Positions 39,037 to 49,326 of a stretch of DNA of 64,000 bases are shown piece by piece (position 1 is the stretch's first letter; every line of letters begins with the position of its first letter). The notes under the pieces were generated by a model. The model made no database searches. It was given only the letters and a program-made list of their open reading frames with translations, and was not told where the DNA came from. The stretch is from a virus, in the IMG/VR virus record IMGVR_UViG_3300038701_001167, positions 1-64,000 of that record; one strand, written 5' to 3'. The position numbers were made by a program, and so were the translations under genes.

Positions 39037-42000
39037 ATGTCCGGCATCGATCTCAACTTTGGAAACCAACCCAAAGTGAACCAAACCAAATCAAATCAAA
39101 AGCAGGCACAGGTGGAAGACACCTCACTCGCCAAGAAGCTTCAGTTTGGTTCTCAGCAGGATCAGTGGGCTCTGGCTACAGCCATGCAGAATGGCAATGC
39201 CATTTCCCAAGATGAGTTCATGCGAGACATGACCAATGCCAGCGACACAGATATCGCTGCAAAATATGGCTTTGAGGTGGTTCAGAATCGTGCCGGATAC
39301 CTTCAACAGTATCGTGATCTGGAAGCCTTCAAGCAAAGCTCAGGTGAGCCAGTAGACATTGCAAACGATACCGCAGTGTCTGTTACCAAAGGAGCTATGA
39401 ACACAGCTGGAGCCATGGGATCGATCGCTGCCTCTGCATGGGATGCCGTAACAGCCGGTCCTCGTGCTCTGGGTGAGCAAATTCATGGCCAGGCTCAGAC
39501 ACCTCTGAGTGAGGTTGCTGCAGAAGGATTGAACTGGGCCAATGAAGCAGTAGACGGACTGAAGTCGGATCGGTCTGTTGAGATGCGGAACCAGTTTGCT
39601 TTGGAACAATCCCTGGATCAGCAAGATCGGGATGCAGAATTCGAAGCTGGCGAGACCAAAGGGTTCGTGGATCAGGCCATCACTGAAGCCAAGAAGTTTG
39701 GTGACACAATCGCAAACCTTGCTGACAATCCGTATACGGCAATGGAAACTGTTGCTGAAGGTATTGGCTCACTTGGCCCAATAGCAAAGACCATTCAAGG
39801 TCTGGCTCGTGCAAACACAGCTCGAAAGCTTGTTGCCGAAGGAATGACCAAAAAAGAAGCTCGTGATCTGATACAAAGGGATGCTGGTCAGGCACTGGTT
39901 CAAGAAGAAGCTCTTCGTCTGGTACCCACAGTTACTGCTCTCACTGAAGGTGGAAGTGCTGGTCTTCAGGCTCGTCAAGAAATTCTGGCCATGTCCGAAG
40001 AAGAGCTGATGCAGTCTCCTGAATATCAGAAGATGATTGAGGACGGGATGGATCCGGATCAGGCACGATCCAAACTCATCGAGATGGCAGGCCGCCCTGC
40101 AGAACTGACTGGTGCCACTCTCGGTTTGTTGACAGGTCGTATCAGCAGAGCGTTCGAAGCCTCTCCCGGTAAGGTTGGTTCCGGCGCTGGTGCAGGCAAG
40201 ACAGTGGCTCTGGAGACCGGTGAAGAAGCTCTACAAGAAGCCTCGAACCAAGCTGCCTCGAATGTGGGTGTGAATGCTGCAGGCTTTGAACGTGAGATCA
40301 CAGATGGACTTGGTGAAGCAGCTGCCATGGGTGCCGCAGGTGGATTGGGAACAGCCGGTGTCATGCAGGCGCCTGGAGCAGCAGCCACAGCCGTTGTTGA
40401 GACAGCCAAGGCCACAGGTCGAGCAGCAGAAGCCGGGTTCAAAGCTCGTATGAATTCTATCGAGCAGGCAACTGATGATGCCAGCCCAGTTGGTCAGAAA
40501 GCCGTTTCTGGAACCAGTGAGCAGATGCGCAAGGATGCAGCTGTGATCTCTGAAGTGGCAGCAAATGAAACCACACCAGAGCAAATCAAAGCACTTGATA
40601 CCAAAGTACAGGAAGCCCTGTATCTGCCAGATGAAGATGCTGACAGCTACATCGAGAGCTTGCCTGCTCTGGCTCAAGTGAAAGAGTCCACCGGGAAAGT
40701 CGATCGATACTCGCTCATCAACGAAGTCTCTCCGATCATCACCAATGAAGAAATCGCTCCGGTAGATCGTCTGGGAGCAGCTGTGCTTGTGATGGAGTCC
40801 TTCGATGCACTCCGGTCGCTGGACAATGATGAGAGCAATGCACTGGTTCAGTCATTGGAAGCTGGAGATCAGACTGGTTCTCGCTTTGGTCGACTAAAGA
40901 AAGACGTGAACAAGCTGACGTCTTCTCCGGCAGTGAAGCGTGCTGAAGAGATCATCCGTACTCTTGAGCCTGAGATGATCAATGCAGTGTTTCCTCTTAC
41001 TGAGAATGCTGATGCTGCAACTCTGCAGGCCTACCGTACAATCAGCCGGTACAATACTCTGGCCATCGATGAGAGCCAGTATGACATGGTTCTGGAACAG
41101 GTGAGTGAGAACGACGCTCTTCGAAAGGAGTTCACTGCAGGCAAAGAAGCTCGCAAGATCTTCGACGAGGCTGACAAAGCAAAAGCGTCTCTCTCAGAAG
41201 AGGTAGGTGGTTCCTACAACACCAAGTCCATGGTGCGTGAACAGATCTTGTCTACCGGCAACAAGAACAATGACATGCCATCGATTGTGGAACATTACCG
41301 CAATGTGATGGATAACATGGCCATTGGTCGTAAAGAAGAAGCAGCCGCAGCACTGGTTGAATTGCGTGAGTTTGCGCAGTCCCAAGTGAACAAGACCGTT
41401 GCATTCAACACAGCTGCAGATACTGGCGTGACCAATGCAGCAGACGGTATTGGCTATGAAGCTTACGGACCGTTCAAGAATTACTTCCGCAAAGAGGGCG
41501 GAGCCTGGTTCAACAAGAACTCTCCCAACTCTGTTGCTCTGGCTCGTGATGTCCATGTGGACACAACAGCAGTGGCAAACACATACAACACTCTGGCTGA
41601 GATTTATCCCGAACTGGTGAGCAACGGTGAGACTCGGATTGATGTTCCTGAGCTGAGTCAGATAATCACCGAATCCAAATCTGCACCGATTGAGACCGAT
41701 CCAGTTGAGCCTGAAAAGGCAGAACGTCGTATTCGTAAAGACGCAAAGCCGGATGCTTCTTTGACAGATGCAGTCACACCGGAAGGGCAGGCTGTTAAAG
41801 ATGCTGTGACGAAAAAGGCAAAAGCTCAGAAGCGTACCACAGCAAAGCAAACCACACCCAAACCAACCAAGTCAGAACCAGTCAAAGCAGAGGAGCCGGT
41901 CGAAAGCACCACGAAGGTGGAGGCAGAGCCGGAACCTGAAGTGATTGCTGAAGACAAGGCGGATGTGGAAGAGTTGATCTCTGAAGCAGACACCATTGCC

Positions 42001-45000
42001 GAAGTCGAAGAGACACCTGAGACAGAACAAAAGTCTCTGGCAGATGTGTTCCCGAACCTCATCAAAGAGAACGGAAACAACTGGTTCCTCAAGACCTTCA
42101 GCCGTCGTGAAAATGGCTCCAAGTTTCTAGATCAAGACAGCCCTATGGAAACCCTGTTGCGTGAAGTGACCGGGCTCAATGCAGAGCAGTCCAATGAACT
42201 GAAGACCCTCAAAGATGTTCTGGCTCCGAAGCTCCAGGAGTATCTGGATGGGATGGCCAAAGACGGATTGCTCAATCCGAAGATGGGCTGGCTCAAGAGC
42301 CTGATGGAAGGAACCAAGGACGTTCTGGGATACAAGAACGCTTCCTCACTCAACTTCCGCAGCACAGTCGATGGGAAAGGTCAGTTTGATCCGAAAGTGA
42401 TCGAAGCCTTCACCATGGCTGTTGGGGAATGGATGCTGAAATCTGAAGCGCGTTTGCCGCGGCAACTGGACAATGAAGAGATCAATAAGCGGTTCGGCCG
42501 CAACCGTGATCATGCCGTCACTGACTTTGAACGTCAGCTGGTGAACCTTGGTGGTATCCAGCTTCAGTCAGTGATCGATGACATCAGTGGTTCCGCCATG
42601 AAACTGATGGGCGTCACAGCTGACAAGTCTCAGCCGGTGAAGTTCTCTCAAGGTATCTTCCGGGGTATGGCTGCCAACGTGCTGGAAGCTCTGGCTGATA
42701 GTGAAGGTGCCGACTGGATTGGGATCACCCAGTATGACTATGACGTGAATGGCTCCAAGCGGACCTACACCTCGATCCAACTCAACAAGGATGTGGATGC
42801 GGTCAAAGACTTCACTCAAGCACTAAAAGGCCGACAGGACCTGTTTGAAAAGGTGTTCTTGGAAGCGCCAGAAGCAGATTACTTCTTTGAGCCAATTCAA
42901 GAGACACCTCGCTCTGTCACACGTCAGCGGTTCAATGAAGTTCAGCCGATTGCCGAGAAGGTTATCAAACGGCTCCAAAGCACACCAAACCGCTTTGTAG
43001 CACCGATGATGGAATTTCGTAGTGCTTTGGGAGATGACGTGTTCAAGCGTCTGGCAGGGTTCCGTGACTTCGATCCGAAGACCACAAATGAAGCGCATGC
43101 TACCAGCATTCAGTCCAAGAACCGGTCCATTGAACGGGCTCTGGATGGGATCGATCAGCACTATGCTCGTGCAGAAGCCTATGCGGCAGAGCAGGGCAAG
43201 ACAGCTGAGCAGACTGATCTGTTCTTCAAGTGGAACATTTCGAGCGTGGGACGTCTTCAGCAGGAAGGGTACATCACACCTCAGGGTGACAAGATTGCCC
43301 GTGAAATGATCTCTTCCACCATGTCGACACTGGATCTCAACAATGAGAACCATGTGAAAGCGATCTGGCTCGCTGCAGCACAGGCATTTGATATCAAGCC
43401 TGGTATCGAGAAGCAGTCACATGAAAAGTCTGTTCGGGACATTCAGGAACTCTTCAACGGTGATCTGAAGCCAGCCATGGAGCTGGTCAAAGACTGGATG
43501 ATCTCTGGTGAGATGACAGATGCCGATGCACTGGAAGCAGCTTTGATCAACTCTGGTGCAGACATCTCTATGAAATCTGTTCACGCTCTGTTGACCGTGG
43601 CCCAGATGGAATACGTGCTTGAAAATGACCCAGAAGGTGCAGGAATTTTCCAAACATCTTTGGCTCTTGAAGCGGACGGCAAGACTGATGGTCCGATTAA
43701 TGCGATGATCAACGTGGGCTTTGGACAATTCACACCCCATCAAATCAAAGTAATGGCCAAGGGTGGTCTGATCGTCTCTGGTTCAGAGATGAGCCTGAAC
43801 CGGTACATCGAAGGCGATGCAGAACACACAGGGGACAAAGAAGACCTCTACGAAGTGGCTGCACAGAGCCTGGAACGGAACCTGGGATCGTACACAGCTG
43901 AGAATGCTCCGGTGATCTTTGACCTGATGGACACATTCCTGAAAGGTTTTTCCTTCAAAGACGGCAAGCTCGACATTGGCCGGAACCTGATCAAGAACCC
44001 TCTGACGGTGTTGCTCTATGGTTCGGGCAAAGCAGGTATCGCATCCAAGCTGGCGTCTGCCATCAAAGACGAACTGCATGCGTTGATGAGTGACATCGCT
44101 GAGTCCGGTAAGCCGTGGCATCAGCATCCGAAGTTCATTGAGAACCCGGCTCTGGTTGATACCCTGAAAGCTGTGTTTGGGAACCAGATCATTTCACTGC
44201 TGGAAAACCCAATCAAATCCAAGATCGAGGGACCTCTTGAGAAAGCTCTGAGTGGTCAGATCGACGAGACGATAGGGGAAGCCCTTGTAGAAGCGATCGA
44301 CGAAGCCACAGGTGGCCTGCGTGAAGCCATGGAGCTTGTTCGGACTGCAACCCAGATCCAAGGAATTGCTTTCGAGGATGCCTATGACAAGGCCATCGAG
44401 CGTATCCGGACCGAGAAAGGTCTCAAGAAGAGCCAGCTGAGTGAGAAGGATTACGAGACAGCTTTCGTGGAAGCATCTCAAGTGGCTCCGATCTACAACA
44501 ACGGTGCTCAGGAATTCCACATCGTTGCATCTGAGAAATACTCCAGCGAGAACCAGATCTCATCTTCGTTGCGGGAACGGTTGTCCAGTGGTGCCACTAT
44601 TCCGAAGCCTGGTGCCGTGGGTGTGAAGGGTCAGCCTTATCTGGTGATTGGTACTGGTGATGGTAGGATGATCATCAACATCCTTGAAGCCGGCGATGCA
44701 GATATGGACCGGACACTGATGGTGTTCGATGGTGTGGAAATTGCTCTCGACAACGTCTTCAGTGCATCCCGTCAGATCAACCAAGCTGTCTGGAAAGGAT
44801 GGCAGGAAGAGAGCGTGACCACATTGGTTCACGATGGCTATCAGAACTTCCTGCGTCAGTTCAAACCCGATGAGTTGGGTGAGAAAGGCAAAGAAGCGCT
44901 CAACAAGCTGGCCAAGTCCAACAAGACTGGTGTGGACAATCTGATCTCTGGTGTTGGTTCCCAACTGCAAGCTAAGTCGGCTCAGAACCTGGCTCGTAAG

Positions 45001-48000
45001 AAAGCCCTGTCCAAAGTCCAAGCCTACATCGATCACATGGCCGGTGCCGAAGCGCCTCATATGAATGAAGGTGAAGTGGTTGAAAGTTCTGTTCCGTTTG
45101 ATCCTGAGCTGATCGCTGAGAAGCTGAACCAGTTCTATCAAGAAGCTTTGGAAGAAGCTCGGGAAGGTATTCGAACAGAGCGTCGTGCAGCTACTATTCA
45201 GGCGCCGAGTGCCAAGCTGATGAACCAGCTCAAGAAGATCGGTGAGCAGGTAGAAGGAACAGAAGCGGTCAAGCTTACTGGTTCCCAACTGACACAAGAC
45301 GTCTTCAAGATGAGCAACGATGCAAGTCGTGAGCAGAACTCTGTGTTCTGGAAGCTGCTGTCTGAGCAAGACAGTCTTGCAGATTACACCTTCTATGTCG
45401 GTGAACAGGCTGACCTGGAAGACATCCGGTCTGATCTGGGAATTGACTCCTCGGTGAGCATCAAAGCCGGTGCCATGTATCCGAAGAACAAAGTAGTGTT
45501 CATTGCCAATGCGTCTCCGGAAACACTGCTGCATGAAGCTCTGCACACACAGACGGCTCGGACATTGGTCGATCACTATGCGGACCCGGAGAACAGTGCT
45601 GACTATGTGGCAGATGCCATTGGCCGGTTGGAGAACCTCAAAGACTTCTTCATGAACATGAGCTTCACCAAAGACACGGCTGAAGATCGGGCAGCCAATC
45701 TGTTGAAGGAACAGCTCACAGAGAAGGCGAATGATCCAGCTGCTGCAATGTCAGAGTTCATCTCTTGGACTTTGTCGAACCAGAAGCTGATCAAGATTGG
45801 TCAGGACACCAAGGTCTACTCTCCACTGCAGAATGTCGGCCGCAAGGTACTGGCTCTGTTGGGTCGTCTATTGGGGATCAAAACTCGACCGGGCAAAACC
45901 CTGTTTGAGAAGGTCCGTTTCAACAGCGAGATCATCATCAAGAGCCAAGACAAAGGCAGCAACAATCTCGATCTGCTCAAGCAAGAAGCCGAAACACAAG
46001 CTGTGTTTGAACAGGCTTACGGAGAAGATACCAATCTGGATCGTCTGGAGAGCAAGTTCCAGCGTCGGATCCAGTCTGCATTGGAAGCGGCTGTCCGTCG
46101 TGTAGATGATCCGATGAGCACAGAGAGCGATAGCTCCGTGGTCAAGCGGGCAGGGGACCTCACTGCTATGGCCGAGAAAGCGGCTGAGCAAGTCGAGAGC
46201 TTTGGGTTTGCAATGAACCAGCGTGAGAAGGCTGTATTCATGAGCATTCACACAGGCATGATGACGGATTTTGAAAGCAATCCGGCTGCACAGCGCAAAG
46301 CCTATGAGCTCTACTCTCACATGCTGAAGAATGCCAAGCCCGGATCACTGAGTGTGTTGGCCGGCAAAGGTGGATTGCGACAAACCAGTGAAGGTCAGAC
46401 AGACCTGCTGGCAACCTTTGTGGCATTGGGCATGGTTCATCCTGGCTTCAAAGCTGAGCTTGCTGAGATGGACGGACCCAAGAACATGGTCGAGTATGAG
46501 CGCAGTGTAGATGGCACCCTGAGATGGTTGGCCAACAGCTCGATCAACTATCTGACTCAGTCTGCCATTGCGATGAAGAAGTCCGGCAAGAAGATGGACA
46601 CTCAACTTCTGGCTCTGGAAAACGCTCTGTCGACCTATCAAGTAGAGCGCCGTCATACAGCTGACCGGATTGCGATGAAGCCTCAGGAAGTGCTCGATCA
46701 GAAACTGTCTGTTCTTCTGGATCGTGGTTCCAAGAAGGCAGTGGCTTTCCTACGGTCCAAACAAAAGCCCACAGATGGTGTGCTCAAGTCTGGTGCTTTC
46801 GTCAGTGCTGAACTGATTGCAGCTATGGGATCGAAAGAGAGCATGGAAGATGTGGGCAATGGCCTGACCTACATGCTTAATGAGCTTGAGCCCTTCAAAG
46901 CTCTGCAAGAAATCTGGACCGATCTGCAGGGTGTGACCAAATCCAATGCAGCTGTGATGGATCTGGTCAACAAGGTGAAGAGCCATGTCGATGCCATGCG
47001 TCAGGATTACCGGGAGAAGATCCCTCAAATCCTGTCCGAGAAGTTCACTCGCAAGATCACCCGTGATGAGTGGACACAGATGTTCGAGGGCATCTCTCAG
47101 ACCGATCTGACCACATTGGGTAACAAGCAGGCTCTGACCCTGCTGAAAGACCTGACCCAACTGCCTGTGAAGATCAAACGAGCAGAGGCACTGGTTTCCG
47201 AATTGGCAAGCAACAACGGGACCCTTTACAAGAAGAAAGCCAACGCACTTGCACACTGGATGGTCAACAAGGAAGCCATCTCAACCAATCTGCTACGTAA
47301 TGCAGAAGCCATCGCCAATCTCTACGGTGAAGGTGTTCAGGTTGGTTCTGAAATCACACCCGATCTGATCGAAGCCATTGACGATCTGACAACCCTCTAT
47401 GCGTTGGACAAGGTGAGCCAAGAGACCAAGGACACATTGCAGGACTTGGCCAATACCGCAGAGGAAGGCCTGAAGTTCATCATTGGGTATCAGGCTTCTA
47501 CCAAAGGTCTGGAGCTACAGCGTATTGCTGATGGAGAAGATGGGGCTGTGTCTCGGATCAACGGCTGGAAAGGCTATGCTCCTGTGACGGCTGCTGCTGG
47601 CAACTCGTTGGTTGTTCGAGACGACGTAGACTTCAAAGAGATGGTGAAACTCGGTTACGAACGTGTTGGTGACTACGAAGGAGATGCTCAGGAGAACTAC
47701 CGTGGCAGCCGTGGATATTACCAGTCCACAGTGGGTGGTCGGTCTGCATATCGTCAGGGTGTAGCTCAGACTGTTCATGCTACGTTCCAAGGTGTTGATC
47801 CTCGAACTGGTGTGTCTCGGACAGGTGAGATGGCAGGGTTCATCTCCGGTCGGAAAGCTGAACTGGCAAAGAGAGCCAAGAAGCGAGTGAACAACGATCT
47901 GGCACCGGGCAATGGTGAAGTCATGGTTCCTGTCTATGGCGCCAATGGAGACATCACCGGGTATGAGCTGACCATGGACCCCAAGCGTCGGGAAGCGTTG

Positions 48001-49326
48001 CAGGAAGACAAGCACATGGCTCGGATGCTCGGTGCCTGGTCTGGCCGTATCGTGGAAGAAACCATGTCGGATCGCTACAACAAGACCTTGGTTCAAACCC
48101 TGAAAGCTCAGTGGGATGAAGCAAGCCCTGAAGAGCGTCGGACCCAGTTCACCAATGTGGCGGATCCCAAGCACAAAGATGCTGTCATTCGAGATGCTTG
48201 GAACACCATGGGTTTCGGGATCAAAGATGCTGCTCGTGATGTGTTCAATGAGAGTGATACTCTCATGGTTCGCAAAGATCTGGTGAATGATGCACTGGGC
48301 TTCCACCAAGCGTCTGTCCGGGATGCCTTCACAGGAACGTCTCGTTGGTCTCCTGAGACACAGCAAGCTTTGGTGACGGCTGCTACAGCTGTCATGGGCA
48401 AGGATGCCTATAAGTACATGGTCAAAGCTGAAGACGGAATTGGTGATCTGGTGTCCTATGCCAAGACCACAATCGTGGTTCGATCGATGACTGTGATCTG
48501 GGAGAACTTGCTGTCCAACAACCTGCACCTGCTGACATGGGGTGTAGGACCGGTAGAGCTGGTCAAGGCACAGAGAGCCAAGTTCATTGAGATCAATCAG
48601 TATGTAAAGAACCAGGAGCGTATTCTGGAACTGAACGCTGAACTGGCAGCCAACATCGAAAATGCAAGCAAAGCTCGTCGGATCACTGCTGAGTTGCGAA
48701 TGCTCGATGATGCCAATCAGAAGCTGAGCATTCGTCCTCTGCTGGAAGCCGGTGAATTCTCAACAGTCTCTGAGAGCCTCACTGAAGCCGATCAGGCCAT
48801 TCGGGAAGGGAAGCTCAGTGACTTCTTTGAGAAGGCTGCTGACAGGCTGCCTGGTGGCGTGCAGACAGCATTCAAGAACTTTGCCATCACCAAAGACACT
48901 GCATTGTTCCAAGGTCTCAACCGGGCTGTCCAGTATGGGGACTTTGTGTCCAAGGCTGTGCTCTACGATCACCTGACAAAAGTGAAAGGCAAGACCGAAG
49001 CTGAAGCGATGGATGTGATCAAGGAAGAGTTCGTGAACTATAACCGCCTGTCTGGTCGAGATCGGGATTACCTGGAAAGCACAGGCATGCTCTGGTTCAT
49101 GAACTATAAGATCCGGATCATGAAGATCATGGCTCGGATGGTACGTGAACGGCCAGCCTCCGCTCTGTTCTATGCTGGTGGGGTAGGTCCGATGGCAGAC
49201 ATTGACACAGTTGTAACTGGTTCAGGTCTGGGGGCTTATCTCGACAATCGCCTCGGATACGCGATTGGGCCTGAAATGGGTGTAAACGGGATCTTCATGA
49301 ACCCGTGGAATAGCTTGGTGAACTGA
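39037..49326 (+). CDS. Virion RNA polymerase (N4 gp50-like) with embedded zincin domain
   Basis: 3,429 residues, packaged and injected to transcribe early genes. The polymerase core lies centrally: motif A ADGKTDGP (D1547), motif B R1649-x3-K1653-x7-Y1661-G (as R666/K670/Y678 of the N4 mini-vRNAP), motif C MVFDGVEI (D1898). N-terminal 900 residues are helical with a KPTKSEPVKAEEPVE linker. A separate HEALH at H2166-H2170, SEFISWTLSN (E2240) and LLGRLLGIKTRPGKTLFEKV look like a gluzincin peptidase domain. The C-terminus carries MARMVRERPASALFYAGG. CACACCA-like DNA motifs occur in several linkers. Ribosome site is weak, preceded by GAAGTGGAACAATA. Confidence 0.93.
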   Translation: MSGIDLNFGNQPKVNQTKSNQKQAQVEDTSLAKKLQFGSQQDQWALATAMQNGNAISQDEFMRDMTNASDTDIAAKYGFEVVQNRAGYLQQYRDLEAFKQSSGEPVDIANDTAVSVTKGAMNTAGAMGSIAASAWDAVTAGPRALGEQIHGQAQTPLSEVAAEGLNWANEAVDGLKSDRSVEMRNQFALEQSLDQQDRDAEFEAGETKGFVDQAITEAKKFGDTIANLADNPYTAMETVAEGIGSLGPIAKTIQGLARANTARKLVAEGMTKKEARDLIQRDAGQALVQEEALRLVPTVTALTEGGSAGLQARQEILAMSEEELMQSPEYQKMIEDGMDPDQARSKLIEMAGRPAELTGATLGLLTGRISRAFEASPGKVGSGAGAGKTVALETGEEALQEASNQAASNVGVNAAGFEREITDGLGEAAAMGAAGGLGTAGVMQAPGAAATAVVETAKATGRAAEAGFKARMNSIEQATDDASPVGQKAVSGTSEQMRKDAAVISEVAANETTPEQIKALDTKVQEALYLPDEDADSYIESLPALAQVKESTGKVDRYSLINEVSPIITNEEIAPVDRLGAAVLVMESFDALRSLDNDESNALVQSLEAGDQTGSRFGRLKKDVNKLTSSPAVKRAEEIIRTLEPEMINAVFPLTENADAATLQAYRTISRYNTLAIDESQYDMVLEQVSENDALRKEFTAGKEARKIFDEADKAKASLSEEVGGSYNTKSMVREQILSTGNKNNDMPSIVEHYRNVMDNMAIGRKEEAAAALVELREFAQSQVNKTVAFNTAADTGVTNAADGIGYEAYGPFKNYFRKEGGAWFNKNSPNSVALARDVHVDTTAVANTYNTLAEIYPELVSNGETRIDVPELSQIITESKSAPIETDPVEPEKAERRIRKDAKPDASLTDAVTPEGQAVKDAVTKKAKAQKRTTAKQTTPKPTKSEPVKAEEPVESTTKVEAEPEPEVIAEDKADVEELISEADTIAEVEETPETEQKSLADVFPNLIKENGNNWFLKTFSRRENGSKFLDQDSPMETLLREVTGLNAEQSNELKTLKDVLAPKLQEYLDGMAKDGLLNPKMGWLKSLMEGTKDVLGYKNASSLNFRSTVDGKGQFDPKVIEAFTMAVGEWMLKSEARLPRQLDNEEINKRFGRNRDHAVTDFERQLVNLGGIQLQSVIDDISGSAMKLMGVTADKSQPVKFSQGIFRGMAANVLEALADSEGADWIGITQYDYDVNGSKRTYTSIQLNKDVDAVKDFTQALKGRQDLFEKVFLEAPEADYFFEPIQETPRSVTRQRFNEVQPIAEKVIKRLQSTPNRFVAPMMEFRSALGDDVFKRLAGFRDFDPKTTNEAHATSIQSKNRSIERALDGIDQHYARAEAYAAEQGKTAEQTDLFFKWNISSVGRLQQEGYITPQGDKIAREMISSTMSTLDLNNENHVKAIWLAAAQAFDIKPGIEKQSHEKSVRDIQELFNGDLKPAMELVKDWMISGEMTDADALEAALINSGADISMKSVHALLTVAQMEYVLENDPEGAGIFQTSLALEADGKTDGPINAMINVGFGQFTPHQIKVMAKGGLIVSGSEMSLNRYIEGDAEHTGDKEDLYEVAAQSLERNLGSYTAENAPVIFDLMDTFLKGFSFKDGKLDIGRNLIKNPLTVLLYGSGKAGIASKLASAIKDELHALMSDIAESGKPWHQHPKFIENPALVDTLKAVFGNQIISLLENPIKSKIEGPLEKALSGQIDETIGEALVEAIDEATGGLREAMELVRTATQIQGIAFEDAYDKAIERIRTEKGLKKSQLSEKDYETAFVEASQVAPIYNNGAQEFHIVASEKYSSENQISSSLRERLSSGATIPKPGAVGVKGQPYLVIGTGDGRMIINILEAGDADMDRTLMVFDGVEIALDNVFSASRQINQAVWKGWQEESVTTLVHDGYQNFLRQFKPDELGEKGKEALNKLAKSNKTGVDNLISGVGSQLQAKSAQNLARKKALSKVQAYIDHMAGAEAPHMNEGEVVESSVPFDPELIAEKLNQFYQEALEEAREGIRTERRAATIQAPSAKLMNQLKKIGEQVEGTEAVKLTGSQLTQDVFKMSNDASREQNSVFWKLLSEQDSLADYTFYVGEQADLEDIRSDLGIDSSVSIKAGAMYPKNKVVFIANASPETLLHEALHTQTARTLVDHYADPENSADYVADAIGRLENLKDFFMNMSFTKDTAEDRAANLLKEQLTEKANDPAAAMSEFISWTLSNQKLIKIGQDTKVYSPLQNVGRKVLALLGRLLGIKTRPGKTLFEKVRFNSEIIIKSQDKGSNNLDLLKQEAETQAVFEQAYGEDTNLDRLESKFQRRIQSALEAAVRRVDDPMSTESDSSVVKRAGDLTAMAEKAAEQVESFGFAMNQREKAVFMSIHTGMMTDFESNPAAQRKAYELYSHMLKNAKPGSLSVLAGKGGLRQTSEGQTDLLATFVALGMVHPGFKAELAEMDGPKNMVEYERSVDGTLRWLANSSINYLTQSAIAMKKSGKKMDTQLLALENALSTYQVERRHTADRIAMKPQEVLDQKLSVLLDRGSKKAVAFLRSKQKPTDGVLKSGAFVSAELIAAMGSKESMEDVGNGLTYMLNELEPFKALQEIWTDLQGVTKSNAAVMDLVNKVKSHVDAMRQDYREKIPQILSEKFTRKITRDEWTQMFEGISQTDLTTLGNKQALTLLKDLTQLPVKIKRAEALVSELASNNGTLYKKKANALAHWMVNKEAISTNLLRNAEAIANLYGEGVQVGSEITPDLIEAIDDLTTLYALDKVSQETKDTLQDLANTAEEGLKFIIGYQASTKGLELQRIADGEDGAVSRINGWKGYAPVTAAAGNSLVVRDDVDFKEMVKLGYERVGDYEGDAQENYRGSRGYYQSTVGGRSAYRQGVAQTVHATFQGVDPRTGVSRTGEMAGFISGRKAELAKRAKKRVNNDLAPGNGEVMVPVYGANGDITGYELTMDPKRREALQEDKHMARMLGAWSGRIVEETMSDRYNKTLVQTLKAQWDEASPEERRTQFTNVADPKHKDAVIRDAWNTMGFGIKDAARDVFNESDTLMVRKDLVNDALGFHQASVRDAFTGTSRWSPETQQALVTAATAVMGKDAYKYMVKAEDGIGDLVSYAKTTIVVRSMTVIWENLLSNNLHLLTWGVGPVELVKAQRAKFIEINQYVKNQERILELNAELAANIENASKARRITAELRMLDDANQKLSIRPLLEAGEFSTVSESLTEADQAIREGKLSDFFEKAADRLPGGVQTAFKNFAITKDTALFQGLNRAVQYGDFVSKAVLYDHLTKVKGKTEAEAMDVIKEEFVNYNRLSGRDRDYLESTGMLWFMNYKIRIMKIMARMVRERPASALFYAGGVGPMADIDTVVTGSGLGAYLDNRLGYAIGPEMGVNGIFMNPWNSLVN

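Follow-up and report, generated by a model that had tools for sequence, protein, structure and literature searches.

The virion RNA polymerases (vRNAPs) of N4-type phages have already been reported to carry a zincin domain (Iyer et al. 2017; PMC5512222). In that study the C1 domain of the N4 enzyme was assigned to the zincin-like metallopeptidases by means of a profile-profile (HHpred) link to the zincin superfamily. The claim is repeated for Pectobacterium N4-like phages in a 2021 review. A cryo-EM preprint on N4 from 2025 resolves C1, points out its conserved HExxH motif and describes the C2 region (PMC12633501); zinc does not appear in its text beyond the sentence on the motif, and no function is attached to C1. 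No report of a substrate, of zinc or of an activity of the N4 vRNAP zincin was found in the open-access PMC literature. Given the 2017 study and the 2025 preprint, the existence of the domain is not new. The peptidase role put forward in an earlier note on the present DNA, which was made from the letters alone, was likewise already published in 2017, and the C1 zincin of the virus described here mostly adds to the domain predicted for N4 in that year.

The vRNAP gene studied here is found in virus record IMGVR_UViG_3300038701_001167 (72,475 bases), of which a stretch of 64,000 nt, hereafter the window, was analysed. The open reading frame at window positions 39037-49326 (plus strand) encodes an N4-type vRNAP of 3,429 amino acids, as judged from Pfam vRNAP domains and from PHROG 2206 ('virion RNA polymerase'), which covers residues 27-3428 with E=0. 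Genes of the N4 type surround the locus, i.e., those for portal, major head protein, DNA polymerase, primase and ssDNA-binding protein. Megablast with the region against GenBank phages returned no match because the virus is highly diverged. Reading frames on the reverse strand and in other frames over the region (e.g., 44560-45576, minus strand) were taken as shadow ORFs and rejected.

Alignment of the whole protein with N4 and eight relatives placed the polymerase core at about residues 999-2047 (42031-45177, plus strand), corresponding to N4 residues 1007-2101, and PF21769, PF21894 and PF21867 all match inside it. The zincin-type domain follows at about residues 2068-2305 (45238-45951, plus strand), as delimited by alignment to N4 C1 (residues 2124-2375), by a family alignment of 88 sequences and by an AlphaFold2 model. 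The remainder, residues 2306-3429 (45952-49323, plus strand), aligns to C2 of N4, the N4 part of this alignment reaching only residue 3008. The end of C2 (residues 2631-3376, window 46927-49164) matches phrog_19273, a family of 4,846 positions and unknown function, with E 2.6e-36; judged by this match, C2 may be common to other giant phage proteins. The earlier note had located the peptidase at 45440-45920, which hits the right region of a somewhat wider domain. It had also described the peptidase as embedded in the polymerase. Both do lie on one chain, but the core ends near residue 2047 in the alignment to N4 gp50 and C1 aligns after this end; the domain is thus the first C-terminal subdomain and not an insertion.

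The three strings on which the proposal was founded are present in the frame and at the residues given for them: SPETLLHEALHTQTARTL at residue 2160 (window 45514-45567), SEFISWTLSNQKL at residue 2239 (45751-45789) and LLGRLLGIKTRPGKTLFEKV at residue 2274 (45856-45915). Residues H2166, E2167, H2170 and E2240 are likewise confirmed by the sequence. The motif HEALH (residues 2166-2170; 45532-45546, plus strand) is the sole HExxH in the 3,429 residues, about 0.03 being expected from composition. E2240 (45754-45756, plus strand), the likely third zinc ligand, is part of the string SEFISWTL.

Conservation was determined across vRNAPs. A first profile search was biased by the use of HExxH-like patterns, and conservation was therefore recounted on relatives gathered with a profile of the polymerase palm, i.e., with no HExxH in the query, so that selection by the motif was avoided. 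Of the vRNAP frames that continue for 350 residues or more downstream, every one (76/76) was found to have the C1 domain and an HExxH. A lack of the motif in relatives, which would have spoken against the earlier note, was not observed. Together with the low number expected from composition, this count indicates that the motif is more than chance. After removal of close copies, 59 palm-selected sequences with a median pairwise identity of 26% remained. H2166, E2167, H2170 and E2240 are invariant in this set (59/59), the distance between last histidine and glutamate ranging from 63 to 89 residues, and these four plus F2295 make up the only columns with 100% identity. Further downstream, the note had stressed a helix with an L..LG signature; the string exists, but the conserved feature is rather the pair F2295-N2296 (45919-45924, plus strand), found in 59 and 58 of the 59 sequences, respectively. 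In a larger mixed set of 100 sequences, partly collected with HExxH-like patterns, the H-E-H-E quartet comprises the only fully invariant columns (100/100). The lone domain match devoid of HExxH (contig L114) is a fragment of an interrupted reading frame that starts past the motif. The vRNAP reading frame of that contig is broken near the zincin domain, either by sequencing error or by a real split. Further, dN/dS values estimated by a simple counting method against one sister contig (94% identical) were 0.076 for C1, 0.052 for the polymerase end and 0.069 for C2; the resemblance of the C1 value to the other two was counted in favour of a zincin-type domain.

Additional observations were made on HExxH motifs and vRNAP genes elsewhere. 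A second HExxH (e.g., HEMAHVMDF) is present past the N-terminal domain but ahead of the polymerase, at residues about 1040-1290, in 19 long vRNAP frames, some of them near-identical (L005, L026, L122, L134, L135, L139, L149 and L164 are among them). Several of these frames are from phages of roseobacters, and the vRNAP of IMGVR_UViG_3300038701_001167 has no such second motif. A 39-kb plasmid of Roseivivax marinus (NZ_CP090154.1) holds a vRNAP gene fragment (L177:10999-12534) with the palm motif and a partial zincin domain containing HEMLH; N-terminal and C2 regions were not detected in it. Near-complete N4-type vRNAP genes were also present in L173-L176, contigs from bins assigned to Methylophaga, Aquabacterium and Flavobacteriaceae, which may be phage contigs or proviruses.

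The fold of the C1 domain was predicted with AlphaFold2 on the 88-sequence alignment (pLDDT 89.1, pTM 0.87). The model contains the helices expected by the earlier note, HEALH being located on helix 2161-2182 and E2240 on helix 2234-2247. The following features of zincins are all present in model and sequence: (i) HExxH on a helix; (ii) a glutamate on a following helix; (iii) core strands, here 2118-2121, 2145-2148 and 2153-2156, preceding the active-site helix. Among solved structures, those of N4 vRNAP come closest to the model (Foldseek E 3e-5; Z 12.2 for 189 residues). Next in rank are lethal-factor zincins of the M34 type with Z about 7.4 over 157 residues at 4.4 A and 10-12% identity, and a Z below 8, which applies to all zincins besides N4 C1, is weak taken alone and may reflect a merely common arrangement. 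This resemblance nevertheless agrees with the independent HHpred link to zincins drawn by Iyer et al. (PMC5512222). The C1 domain gave no sequence match to the M34 lethal-factor peptidase; the likeness appears to be one of fold rather than of membership. Searches of Pfam, NCBIfam and PADLOC with the domain yielded weak or scattered matches and no convincing metallopeptidase family, SprT-like being the most frequent Pfam match (33 of 88 members, best E 0.0026). MPTase-PolyVal (PF18818) matched neither this record nor N4, phiKMV or DFL12phi1, and the controls were likewise without match. Matches to phosphodiesterase, CDPK1 and similar proteins were discarded as chance. Conservation, predicted fold and homology to N4 C1 (E 1e-98 with the family profile) thus support the identification of the region as a zincin-like peptidase domain.

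A domain homologous to N4 C1 was also detected in gp37 of phage phiKMV (NC_005045, L172:1067-5080; PDB 9sfn chain G), which scored E 4e-12 against the family profile in the PDB search. When gp37 was compared with vRNAP outside the zincin, neither the N-terminal domain nor C2 was recognizable. As gp37 is an internal virion protein without a polymerase, the module accompanies virion-carried proteins and not the polymerase alone. Internal core proteins from Pseudomonas phages, together with further large phage proteins, also came up in a fold search of BFVD. The passages on phiKMV and zincins retrieved from the open-access PMC literature draw no link between the two, and the phiKMV domain may still be reported elsewhere. 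The occurrence of the homologous domain in gp37 suggests that it works during entry or on targets in the host.

The explanation we favour, at roughly even odds, is that residues 2068-2305 form a zincin-type metallopeptidase of the N4 C1 kind that is ejected with the polymerase and most likely cuts a host protein. Judging from invariant residues and fold, the domain would be gluzincin-like, with H2166, H2170 and E2240 holding a zinc ion and E2167 serving as general base. As is known for N4, the still intact polymerase chain would carry the domain into the virion and, upon ejection, out of it; its most likely target would then be a host protein, either cytoplasmic or located at the inner membrane. 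It is the association with virion-carried proteins, i.e., gp37 and the core proteins from BFVD, from which we infer this role. That the substrate is a host protein is conjecture, and host defence proteins, the target suggested by the earlier note, are possible candidates. A broader proposal is more tentative: the N4-type polymerase and the gp37-type internal virion protein of phiKMV, which come from two groups of podoviruses and are unrelated in other respects, could have in common one ejected zinc protease module whose host target is cut during the first minutes after infection.

Alternatively, the zincin might cut the vRNAP chain itself after ejection, for instance in the linker that joins the polymerase to C1, and thereby free the polymerase from an inhibitory C-terminal domain. 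Autoprocessing has been proposed for polyvalent proteins, and DdrB of P1 is cleaved before packaging (Iyer et al., PMC5512222). In N4, the linker between RNAP and C1 is flexible and unresolved, and the C-terminal domain represses transcription (PMC12633501), so that release of the polymerase would make sense. However, the N4 vRNAP enters the virion unprocessed (PMC5512222) and is also intact on purification, and no degradation of the full-length recombinant protein was seen (PMC12633501), which argues against processing before packaging. In a search for cleavage sites in the linkers, which covered only 10 diverse vRNAP sequences, no residue of the flanking stretches 2030-2075 and 2297-2333 was kept in at least nine of the ten, and hence no common cleavage site is evident. 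The occurrence of the domain in gp37 without a polymerase also speaks against this scenario. The suggestion of the earlier note that the 3,429-residue chain is self-processed is weakened by these data; on this analysis cleavage before packaging appears unlikely, the cutting of a host protein being preferred over it, and cleavage after ejection is perhaps a one-in-four prospect in qualitative terms, i.e., doubtful.

Somewhat less probable still is a role in entry itself, in which the domain cuts an envelope protein in passage or helps, in a metal-dependent manner, to package, refold or anchor the chain that is ejected. The C-terminal region of the N4 vRNAP was reported to be needed for encapsidation (PMC5512222). 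The presence of the same domain in gp37, whose annotation names an internal virion protein and an endolysin domain, would also suit such a role. In zincins, the general-base glutamate of HExxH is not a metal ligand. Full invariance of E2167 is therefore better explained by catalysis than by a purely structural function. It is very improbable that the domain is an inactive relic whose zincin fold serves as scaffold only: no activity is reported in the open-access PMC literature and the N4 preprint gives C1 no function (PMC12633501), but in a relic the catalytic residues should have disappeared from one lineage or another, whereas the catalytic-type quartet never varies across widely diverged vRNAPs and, with one phenylalanine, makes up all 100% columns of the unbiased 59-sequence alignment.

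The preferred reading thus remains that a host protein is cut once the domain has been ejected, and the invariance of the quartet together with the phiKMV-type homologue makes the question of target and timing directly testable in coliphage N4. The domain described here resembles C1 of N4 vRNAP (gp50, residues 2124-2375; PDB 9pnr, 9pnt) in that it occupies the same place in the same protein and has the same four invariant residues, which in N4 are contained in HELVH (2228-2232) and in an NEF motif with glutamate E2310. It differs from N4 C1 by strong sequence divergence (21% identity over 189 aligned residues) and by HEALH and SEF in place of HELVH and NEF. The same quartet is shared with phiKMV gp37, where it is represented by HEAVH at position 423 and the glutamate motif KELVAW; unlike vRNAP, however, gp37 contains no polymerase and, being an internal virion protein, has an annotated endolysin domain.
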